NCBI RefSeq assembly: GCF_020733635.1
Contig: NZ_JAJFZL010000001.1
Location: 5,890,001-5,954,000, forward strand
DNA from: Nocardia spumae
Lineage (GTDB): Bacteria; Actinomycetota; Actinomycetes; Mycobacteriales; Mycobacteriaceae
Length of the DNA stretch: 64,000 nucleotides
Direction of reading: 5' to 3'
Below are positions 1,495 to 6,485 of the stretch, one piece after another. The position numbers and the translations under genes are program-made. Positions within the stretch are counted from its first letter, which is position 1, and each line of letters opens with the position of its first letter. The notes beneath the pieces were generated by a model. That model made no database searches and was not told where the DNA came from. It worked only from the letters and a program-made list of their open reading frames with translations.

Positions 1495-2244
1495 ATGTCC
1501 GATACCGCCTCCACCACCGCAGCCCGCGCCCACGCGAGGTCGCAAGCCGCGACGGCGACCATCTCCGGACCCGACCTGCCGGAAACCGTCGATCCGGCGG
1601 ATATCACCGTCGCACAGCGGGTTCCGGGCAACGGCTACACCACCGCGGTGGTGGGCCGCGGCACCCGGATCCGGCTCGCCGATCCGGAAGGCGCGGCCTG
1701 TGCCCATCTGCTGCTGCTGCGTGCCGAAGCGCCGTGGGAGCGACTGAATGTGGCCGATACCGTCAAGGTGCCCTGGCAGGCGTATCCGGGTCCGGGACAT
1801 CCGCTGTTGTCGGACCAGGGACGGGTACTGGCGACGATCGTCACCGATACCTCGGGCCACCACGACACGCTGTGCGGGCCGACGCCGCAGGTACGGACCG
1901 CATTGCGGGTCGCCGGTGCCAAACACGGTCTCACACCGCGTGATATCGGTCCGACGATCTCGCTGTTCCGCGGCGTCCGGGTCGGCCCCGACGGCGGCCT
2001 CGGCGCCATCGGTAACGCCGGCGCGGGACGGGTGGTCGAACTGCTGGTCCACCTGCCGCTGACGGTGCTGATCGCGAACGGCGCCCATCCTCTCGACGAA
2101 CATCCCACCACCCCGCTCGACGTCGTCGCGTGGCGAGCGGCGTCAGCGCATCCGGCCGGCAACACCGATCCGGAATATCTCCGGGCCGTGGAGAACACCG
2201 AAGCGGCCTGGCTGGCCGCACACGATCTGGAGGCCATCGCATGA
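1495..2244 (+). CDS. DUF1989 protein UAAP1, probable carboxyguanidine deiminase subunit
   Basis: A 249-residue DUF1989 protein of the type named urea amidolyase-associated protein 1. Members of this family paired with UAAP2 are now known as the two subunits of carboxyguanidine deiminase, which converts carboxyguanidine to allophanate. The conserved motif HHDTLCGP, a likely metal-binding site, lies in the middle of the chain. The ATG is preceded by GAGGAG seven bases upstream, which decides the start over longer in-frame possibilities. The stop overlaps the next start by ATGA, so UAAP1 and UAAP2 are translationally coupled, as expected of subunits. The context of permease, carboxyltransferase and allophanate hydrolase supports the role. 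Confidence 0.85.
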   Translation: MSDTASTTAARAHARSQAATATISGPDLPETVDPADITVAQRVPGNGYTTAVVGRGTRIRLADPEGAACAHLLLLRAEAPWERLNVADTVKVPWQAYPGPGHPLLSDQGRVLATIVTDTSGHHDTLCGPTPQVRTALRVAGAKHGLTPRDIGPTISLFRGVRVGPDGGLGAIGNAGAGRVVELLVHLPLTVLIANGAHPLDEHPTTPLDVVAWRAASAHPAGNTDPEYLRAVENTEAAWLAAHDLEAIA

Positions 2245-2861
2245 ACACCATCGCCGAACGCACCGTGGTCCTGGACGAGATCGTCGCCGCCTGCGCGCCG
2301 TGGTCGGCGGTCGTCCCCGCCGGCCATCAGCTGGAAATCATCGACCTGCACGGTAATCAGGCGGTCGACTGTCTGCTCTACTCCGCCGCCGACCACAGCG
2401 ACCGTTACAGCGCCCAGGTCACGGTCGCGGCCCAGCGCAATATCTTCCTCACCACGGGCAGCGTCCTGCGTGCCGAATCCGGTACGCCGCTGATGACGGT
2501 GGTCGCCGACGATGTCGGCAATCACGACACCCTCGCCGGCGCGTGCTCGCAGGAGTCCAATACTCTGCGCTACGGCCACCACACCCGCCATCAGCACGCG
2601 TGCGTGGAGAACTTTCTCACCGCCGCCCTGGAATGGGGGCTGGGGAAGCGGGATCTGGTTTCGAACATCAACTGGTTCATGAACGTTCCGGTCGAGTCGG
2701 ACGGCACCCTCGGGATCGTCGACGGCCTGTCCGCACCGGGGAAGTCGGTGACCCTGCGGGCCGAGATCGATACGCTGGTCCTGGTTTCGAATTGCCCGCA
2801 GATCAACAACCCGTGCAACGGCTTCGAGCCGACGCCGGTGCGCATGGTGGTGTCACGATGA
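2241..2861 (+). CDS. DUF1989 protein UAAP2, probable carboxyguanidine deiminase subunit
   Basis: A 206-residue DUF1989 paralogue of the preceding gene, matching urea amidolyase-associated protein 2. It carries the motif [11 protein letters not shown], which aligns with HHDTLCGP of UAAP1 and supplies a Cys and His suitable for metal binding. It is joined to both neighbours by 4-base ATGA overlaps. The predicted heteromer removes ammonia from carboxyguanidine and passes allophanate to AtzF, encoded two genes downstream. Family membership is clear from sequence. The carboxyguanidine substrate comes from published work on the family, not from this sequence. Confidence 0.85.
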
Positions 2862-4879: not shown

Positions 4880-4892
4880 GGGCGGACAACAG

Positions 4893-6485
4893 TTGAGCAT
4901 CTGGATTCATCGCTGCGCCGAGGACACCGGCGCGACCACGGGAACACTCGCCGGACTGCGCTTGGCCGTCAAGGACAATGTCGATGTCGCCGGGATCCCG
5001 ACGACCGCGGGCTGCCCCGACTACGCCTATGTACCGGACCACGATGCGCCCGCCGTCGCCGCGCTGCGCGCCGCGGGTGCGGTGGTGGTGGGCAAGACCA
5101 ATCTCGATCAGTTCGCGACGGGCCTGGTGGGCACCCGCTCCCCCTATGGGGCCGTTCCCGATTCCCGGCGTCCCGCATTCATCTCCGGCGGTTCGAGTTC
5201 CGGATCCGCGGTCGCCGTCGCCACCGGTGCGGCCGATATCGCCATCGGCACCGATACCGCCGGCTCCGGCCGGATTCCGGCGGCCCTCCAGGGCATCGTG
5301 GGTATCAAACCGACGGTCGGCGTGATCTCCACCGAGGGCGTCGTCCCGGCGTGCCGTTCCTACGACTGTGTGACCATCTTCGCCGCCGACCTCGCACTGG
5401 CCGATCGCGCCATGGCGGTGATGGCCGCGGGAGCGCCGGATCGCCCCTGGCCCGGTGATATCCGGCTCGCCGCCCCACCGCGGCCCACCGTCGCGGTCTT
5501 CACCGATCTGCCAGAACTGGATCCGGTGTGGCGAGAGGCCTTCGACCGCAGCGTGGATACGCTGCGGGCCCGCGGCGCCACCATCGTGGAGATCGACCCG
5601 GCGCCGTTCCTGGCCGCGGCCCGCCTGCTCTACGACGGTGCGCTGGTCGCCGAACGGTACGCGGCGGTTGGCGAATTCATCGACGCGCATCCGGATGCGG
5701 CCGATCCGACGGTGGCCGGAATCATCCGGGCGGCCGCGGCGATTCCGGCCCATCGGCTGGTCACCGATCGCGCCGAACTCGAGCGGCTGCGCGCCCGCGC
5801 GATGGCCGCGCTGGGCGACGCCGATGTGCTGCTCGCCCCGACCGCGCCGACGCATCCGACGATCGCCCAGGTCGCGGCGGATCCGATCGGCGTCAATTCA
5901 CGGATGGGCACCTACACCAATTTCTGCAATCTGTTCGATCTGTGCGCGGTGGCCGTCCCGGCCGGAACGGCGGGCGAATCCTTTTTCGGCGTCACGGTTT
6001 TCGCTCGTCCCTTCGAGGATGCCGTGGCCCTCGACATCGCCGCGCTGCTGACCGCGGATGCGGAGATCGCCCGGCCGTGGCCACTGGCCGCCGCACCGTC
6101 GTGCGAGCTCGTGGTCTTCGGAGCACATCTGCGCGGTCAGCCGCTGGAACATCAGCTGCACACTCTCGGTGCGCGCTGGTCTGGACCGGTCACCACGGCG
6201 CCGGCCTATCGGCTGGCGGCACTGGACACCACACCGCCGAAACCCGCGGTGACCCGCTGCGCGGGCGGGGTGCCGATCGAGGGCGAGCGATGGCTGCTCT
6301 CCCCCGCCGCACTCGGCCGTTTCCTCGCGGAGCTGCCCGCGCCCATGCAGCTCGGCTCGGTCGAACTCGCCGACGGCAGCCTGTGTACCGCTTTCGGCTG
6401 CGACGGCGAAGCGGCGGCCGCGGGTAAGGATCTCAGCGAATACGGCGGCTGGCGAGCCGCGTTGGCCGCCGGCGCGGTGGGTTGA
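4893..6485 (+). CDS. atzF: Allophanate hydrolase
   Basis: 530 residues. The amidase-signature domain holds Lys27 in VKDNVDVAG and the Ser-rich GGSSSGSA motif followed by IGTDTAGSGRIPAAL, giving the Lys-cisSer-Ser triad. Residues from about 400 onwards form the C-terminal allophanate hydrolase domain with VFGAHLRGQPLEHQL. It splits allophanate to ammonia and CO2, the last step of the pathway encoded by this operon. The start is a TTG with GAGGGCGG upstream; no better in-frame start is present. It is separated by 13 bases from the carboxyltransferase stop and closes the operon; the next gene converges on it. Confidence 0.92.
   Translation: MSIWIHRCAEDTGATTGTLAGLRLAVKDNVDVAGIPTTAGCPDYAYVPDHDAPAVAALRAAGAVVVGKTNLDQFATGLVGTRSPYGAVPDSRRPAFISGGSSSGSAVAVATGAADIAIGTDTAGSGRIPAALQGIVGIKPTVGVISTEGVVPACRSYDCVTIFAADLALADRAMAVMAAGAPDRPWPGDIRLAAPPRPTVAVFTDLPELDPVWREAFDRSVDTLRARGATIVEIDPAPFLAAARLLYDGALVAERYAAVGEFIDAHPDAADPTVAGIIRAAAAIPAHRLVTDRAELERLRARAMAALGDADVLLAPTAPTHPTIAQVAADPIGVNSRMGTYTNFCNLFDLCAVAVPAGTAGESFFGVTVFARPFEDAVALDIAALLTADAEIARPWPLAAAPSCELVVFGAHLRGQPLEHQLHTLGARWSGPVTTAPAYRLAALDTTPPKPAVTRCAGGVPIEGERWLLSPAALGRFLAELPAPMQLGSVELADGSLCTAFGCDGEAAAAGKDLSEYGGWRAALAAGAVG

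Follow-up and report, generated by a model that had tools for sequence, protein, structure and literature searches.

A gene at positions 2858–4879 of a 64,000-nt stretch of the Nocardia spumae genome (here the window; positions 5890001–5954000 of contig C1 in a genome of 7.07 Mb) is predicted to encode a guanidine carboxyltransferase (CT) without biotin carboxylase (BC) and biotin carrier (BCCP) domains. The protein likely receives the carboxyl group in trans from AccA3, the BC–BCCP subunit common to acyl-CoA carboxylases, a reading to which we assign a probability of roughly 0.55. The genomes compared here show directly that the two domains are missing, how widely the CT-only form occurs, that its active-site residues are conserved and which operon it belongs to.

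The operon and its bare carboxyltransferase

The permease, UAAP1, UAAP2, CT and AtzF genes follow each other in this order on the plus strand with tight spacing, and an AccA3-like gene lies elsewhere in the window:

1..1456, plus strand: APC permease of the urea/guanidine carboxylase system type (TIGR03428, 812.8 bits; cut-off 740.45)
1495..2244, plus strand: UAAP1 (DUF1989), carboxyguanidine deiminase-type subunit (TIGR03425, 212.6 bits; cut-off 205.95)
2241..2861, plus strand: UAAP2 (DUF1989), carboxyguanidine deiminase-type subunit (TIGR03424, 329.2 bits; cut-off 284.7)
2858..4879, plus strand: bare guanidine-type CT (KipA–KipI), 673 aa (Pfam, NCBIfam, alignment to K. lactis urea amidolyase, residue counts)
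4893..6485, plus strand: AtzF allophanate hydrolase (TIGR02713, 619.8 bits; cut-off 511.05)
45539..47356, minus strand: AccA3-like BC–BCCP alpha subunit, 605 aa, with an EAMKM motif (PF00289, PF02786, PF02785, PF00364)

The permease, UAAP1, UAAP2 and AtzF each score above their own NCBIfam cut-off. By this measure UAAP1 and UAAP2 belong to the carboxyguanidine deiminase families, and deiminase activity is predicted for them; the CT thus sits beside CgdA/CgdB-type genes and AtzF. The name AccA3 was given to the gene at 45539–47356 by likeness, and its link to the CT is a proposed one.

The CT contains PF02626 and PF02682 as its only Pfam domains, which bears out the preliminary description of a 673-residue protein made of KipA and KipI alone. 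It aligns to positions 445–1112 of the 1,201 positions of the urea carboxylase model TIGR02712 with 973.4 bits, below the curated cut-off of 1303.85 that served as a test for guanidine carboxylases. Pfam and NCBIfam searches found no BC domain on the chain, and no BCCP domain with a biotin motif was found on it. The CT begins at an ATG that overlaps the stop codon of UAAP2, and a gap of 13 bases lies between the CT and AtzF, so that neither side hides a frameshifted BC or BCCP, and frameshift or read-through into such a domain is ruled out; the observation that the protein ends without a carrier motif holds, as there is no room for one before AtzF. The idea that a BC–BCCP is encoded upstream of the window and the permease is refuted, as no BC or BCCP gene was found there. 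The permease ATG is at position 14927 of the left-flank sequence (L010), 74 bases left of the first base of the window, and is followed leftwards by a divergent TetR gene (PF00440; 131 bases between the two starts), a short gene and an SNF2-like helicase, the last two seemingly unrelated and named by eye from their translations. A search of 3.1 kb spanning the operon start (L010 13900–17000) gave no Rfam match at E up to 1, guanidine riboswitches included.

The closest protein matches of the CT, in Nocardia africana and N. nova, are 89–90% identical to it. An AlphaFold model built from 12 close sequences was set aside for its low score (mean pLDDT of 58.8). Taken together, 2858–4879 is a guanidine carboxylase variant by architecture, which falls outside the strict domain definition but likely works like one. 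Among the papers listed in searches of the open PMC library, which covers few of the subscription journals, none has a title or displayed abstract describing a CT-only guanidine carboxylase.

A single loss of two domains

A maximum-likelihood tree of 44 CT-domain rows (including L138, the urea-carboxylase-type copy of G308, which is outside the CT-only set) places the CT-only proteins in one clade, with support of 97/92, nested within full-length guanidine carboxylases that form a grade. A second, quick tree covering 124 rows (66 CT-only, 50 from the full-length guanidine group and 8 urea carboxylases), which are not all independent as some records represent one genome (for example, L059 and L165), unites 66/66 CT-only rows with local support of 0.991 and one Fitch change. 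These topologies indicate that the CT-only form arose by one loss of BC and BCCP. Given that two domains were lost once and the rest was kept across genera, something else would supply BC and BCCP.

Candidate carboxybiotin donors

The N. spumae genome has nine BC domains and two KipA-type domains, the latter being the CT described here and the 5-oxoprolinase PxpC. We classed the BC genes by size, neighbours and tree, with domain scans of two of them (the 1,057-aa chain and AccA3). They comprise two pyruvate carboxylases, a long single-chain carboxylase, a 1,057-aa BC–BCCP–CT chain, an AccA1 type (L015), an L018 type, L013 and L014 (free AccC types beside likely CoA-type partners) and AccA3. 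All nine domains are 42–51% identical to the BC of a Nocardia urea carboxylase, and that same BC is 63–70% identical to those of five full-length guanidine carboxylases and one further urea carboxylase. A dedicated urea/guanidine-type BC elsewhere in the genome was considered and rejected, as none of the nine BC genes is close to that type. A possible free carrier is also encoded: L033 (G000:C1:5692702-5692884), a short BCCP-type frame that stands alone and has an ESMKM motif.

We extended the inventory to ten further CT-only genomes of eight genera, with the operon mapped and all BC matches classed in each (G076 is represented by locus L207). A stand-alone BC of the urea/guanidine type was not found in the 11 genomes. 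AccA3 occurs in 10 of the 11, at 71–88% identity, and is missing from G065; the L018-type BC–BCCP is also present in 10, G065 included, and is missing from G124, a one-contig genome. The AccA1 type occurs in nine (missing from G094 and G065) and pyruvate carboxylase in eight (missing from G064, G074 and G076). At face value, no BC class is present in all 11. G065, a single-contig sister of G094, has the CT-only operon yet no AccA3 match. Two genes that neighbour AccA3 in G094, with names assigned by eye, were also not found in G065: Pth, 3.3 kb from AccA3 in G094 (which served as the positive control), and a flotillin-like gene within 4 kb of it, for which the search had no positive control. 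Because both neighbours are missing too, the AccA3 miss in G065 is likely caused by a hole in the sequence; G124 gives no comparable sign of a missing block.

AccA3 was also found in all six genomes surveyed that have full-length enzymes, so that its presence is not diagnostic. At AccA3 residue 290, Val in 10/10 CT-only genomes is replaced by Ile in 6/6 full-length genomes; this single V/I column, which has no control, may be due to chance.

Partial elimination of the other carriers, together with analogy, makes AccA3 the most likely candidate donor. The analogy is with the AccA3–AccD acyl-CoA carboxylases of the mycolata, in which AccA3 is common to AccD4, AccD5 and AccD6 (PMC5407890; PMC11001197) and a lone CT uses a common BC–BCCP subunit, as we propose here. 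AccD, however, is a CoA-type CT (PF01039), and no such domain was found in our CT at E up to 0.001. As AccA3 is expected to contact AccD through the AccA3 C-terminal region (PMC5407890), a CT without an AccD-type domain would need a new contact. A pull-down study of mycobacterial subunits used known acyl-CoA carboxylase genes as baits (PMC4347857).

The suggestion in the preliminary description that AccA3-type subunits serve the CT in trans is thus supported indirectly, by the lineage-wide loss of BC and BCCP, the kept active site and the partial elimination of other donors. Its companion idea of a ‘three-part’ guanidine carboxylase is right in that BC and BCCP are off the chain, but is better worded as a CT on its own that is likely served by one BC–BCCP protein.

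The strongest competitor, which we nonetheless consider unlikely, is that carboxybiotin reaches the CT in trans from another carrier: the L018-type BC–BCCP, the leucine-pathway AccA1 type, pyruvate carboxylase, or a free BCCP paired with a loose BC. The elimination is not clean, as the L018 type is as widespread as AccA3 and covers G065, which at face value has the operon without AccA3, and the genome of N. spumae has free BCCP-type frames (L030 and L033). In two genomes of the genus Gordonia (G308 and G347; loci L127 and L128), the guanidine operon is followed, a few genes further downstream, by an AccD1–AccA1-like operon, whose AccA1 type is the nearest BC–BCCP. Against these points, each of the three named classes is absent from at least one CT-only genome, as listed above, and no BC was found beside the operon at three further Gordonia-genus loci (L093, L208 and L200, the last of which ends 3.4 kb downstream). 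As a conserved BC neighbour of the guanidine operon, we found none except the AccA1-type operon of those two genomes.

Active-site residues and substrate

Guanidine carboxylases have Asp at the position of K. lactis residue 1584 and, unlike urea carboxylase, Asp at 1330 (PMC11410670); an Asp/Asn pair at the specificity position separates the two enzymes (PMC12186494), and Lys1605 of the K. lactis enzyme is a likely general base (PMC5770610). Counted along the alignment to 5i8i, residues 1330, 1584 and 1605 correspond to Asp270, Asp516 and Lys537 of the CT, which therefore has all three residues of a guanidine carboxylase. Asp270 is found in 66/66 CT-only and 50/50 full-length guanidine-group rows, with Asn in 8/8 urea carboxylase rows; Asp516 and Lys537 occur in all 124 rows. 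Among 232 columns that are at least 97% identical in the full-length enzymes, 216 are kept in at least 90% of the CT-only rows and 16 are not. We read carboxyl transfer from carboxybiotin as unchanged in the CT-only enzymes, to judge from these alignments. Because Asp occupies the specificity position in every CT-only row, guanidine is favoured over urea as the predicted substrate; urea is disfavoured by Asp270.

Residue 231 of the CT (window 3548–3550) separates the groups in another way, being Asp in 66/66 CT-only rows, Ala in 49 and Ser in 1 of the 50 full-length guanidine rows, and Asn in 8/8 urea carboxylases. It is possibly tied to the use of a foreign carrier.

The nearest known system is guanidine carboxylase itself (gca), a single BC–CT–BCCP chain that works with CgdAB and AtzF. 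Our CT is 63–74% identical to full-length actinobacterial counterparts and shares with them the specificity Asp, the partners UAAP and AtzF and, in many cases, a TetR gene and the permease type; unlike them, it has no BC and no BCCP, and there is no riboswitch match at the operon start. Urea carboxylase (K. lactis 3va7/5i8i, and a second copy in many Nocardia) resembles the CT in its KipA–KipI sequence and in Lys1605 but differs in having Asn at the specificity position, in being full length and in lacking a UAAP1 or UAAP2 match in the seven Nocardia loci mapped.

The same residues weigh on a further alternative, that the CT is biotin-free and works like the 5-oxoprolinase PxpBC or on another activated donor. 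PxpB and PxpC are built from the same KipI and KipA domains, and many records annotate the family as ‘5-oxoprolinase/urea amidolyase’. PxpB and PxpC are, however, separate genes with their own locus in N. spumae; the PxpB of this genome has a gap at the position of the general-base Lys that every CT-only protein retains; most columns invariant in full-length enzymes are kept; and the best-scoring model for the CT is urea carboxylase, compared with 115.8 for PxpC (cut-off 500) and 34.4 for PxpB (cut-off 145.55). The non-biotin donor mentioned in the earlier description is accordingly disfavoured, and we regard this alternative as improbable.

Distribution and retention of the CT-only form

The CT-only gene, called as an open frame of at most 1,040 codons, is held by 50 of 59 Nocardia genomes. 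A second, urea-carboxylase-type copy is present in 29 of the 59; 25 genomes have both, four have only the latter and five have neither. At all 13 mapped Nocardia CT-only loci, TetR, UAAP1, UAAP2 and CT are present and there is no BC or BCCP match; the APC permease is present at 11. A sodium:solute symporter (PF00474) takes the place of the permease at L050 (2938–4461; Nocardia G019) and L058 (9399–10922; G051), an apparent transporter swap in the guanidine operon. The seven mapped Nocardia urea-carboxylase loci all encode BC–CT–BCCP and have no UAAP match; AtzF adjoins six of them.

Across the family, a urea-carboxylase-type CT (E up to 1e-150) was detected in at least 204 of 301 genomes and at least 24 of 31 genera, the 204 genomes being only partly assigned to CT-only or full-length forms. 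The 20 family loci that we mapped comprise 15 CT-only and 5 full-length, and all 20 have UAAP1 and UAAP2. Outside the family, a sample of the class gave 22 genomes with such a CT, and in 21 of them the open frame spans 1,128 codons or more; the outlier, G427 (51% identical, a frame of 859 codons), was left out of the full-length count. Full-length guanidine carboxylases also occur in genera in which the CT-only form is common, at L214 (Mycobacterium sp. 1465703.0), L080 (G122) and L081 (G310); transfer or retention may account for them.

Named relatives (the best 80 of 587) divide into 45 full-length and 35 CT-only, the latter from nine genera: Nocardia, Skermania, Rhodococcus, Rhodococcoides, Mycobacterium, Mycolicibacterium, Mycolicibacter, Gordonia and Williamsia. 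The full-length loci are from Streptomyces, Actinoplanes, Arthrobacter and others, and also from Lolliginicoccus, Smaragdicoccus and Mycobacterium sp. 1465703.0. UAAP1 and UAAP2 are in view at 77 of the 80 loci (42 of 45 full-length), the exceptions being L187, L239 and L243, the last counted as full-length although visible only from the CT onward. No BC or BCCP was found beside the 35 CT-only loci within up to 9 kb on each side (6 of the 35 were shortened by a contig end); the single other match nearby is a 44% BC fragment about 8 kb away, at L192. With the gene in 50 of 59 Nocardia genomes and 35 of 80 named relatives, the CT-only form is no local accident and more than chance.

That the gene is a decaying remnant or a regulator without carboxylase activity is very improbable: two catalytic parts are missing, and among the 50 Nocardia copies two are interrupted by an internal TGA and another is divided between two contigs, but the tree requires one change, after which the protein was kept in nine named genera at 65–90% identity with an unchanged active site and a constant UAAP1–UAAP2–CT order at all mapped CT-only loci.

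Fate of the product

Among 14 Nocardia genomes, AtzF is in the guanidine operon in 8/8 without a urea-carboxylase copy and in 0/6 with one (Fisher P = 0.0003), although the six AtzF-less genomes form one clade in the 44-row tree, so that few independent events are represented. Three of the urea-carboxylase loci of those six genomes were mapped, and AtzF adjoins two of them but not the third (L064). A further 21 family loci were mapped; 17 fit the pattern, and the other four (L088, L091, L262 and L264) have no adjacent AtzF and no second carboxylase among the matches listed. We take the pattern as supplementary evidence for conversion of the product to allophanate.

The M. smegmatis genes MSMEG_2184, 2187 and 2189 are reported to be GlnR-regulated in nitrogen limitation (PMC3662644), and a like-named operon of that species is under GlnR (PMC3662644; PMC4617892). 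Likened by name and order, this looks like the same operon.

A proposed pathway and its implications

On the AccA3 reading, the permease would import guanidine and AccA3 would carboxylate its own biotin using ATP and bicarbonate. The carboxybiotin arm of AccA3 would then visit the CT, where Lys537 would act as the base and Asp270 would select guanidine. UAAP1 and UAAP2 would convert the resulting carboxyguanidine into allophanate, which AtzF would hydrolyse to ammonia and CO2. Guanidine turnover by this operon and contact between AccA3 and the CT are the two predictions at its core.

If this is true, a KipA–KipI CT would be able to work with a carboxybiotin carrier that belongs to another class of carboxylase, and the client list of AccA3 would extend beyond acyl-CoA. 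It would also account for a large group of proteins that are filed under ‘5-oxoprolinase/urea amidolyase’, and screens that require a full TIGR02712 score would overlook such pathways. The GlnR-regulated M. smegmatis operon offers an available test system. More broadly, and at what we judge to be even odds, guanidine carboxylase in mycolic-acid bacteria may have become a plug-in: BC and BCCP would have been lost once, long ago, leaving a bare KipA–KipI CT that docks on AccA3, the first non-CoA client of the shared alpha subunit. The subunit used for fatty-acid and mycolate synthesis would then also power nitrogen scavenging, which may provide a direct switch between nitrogen hunger and lipid synthesis.
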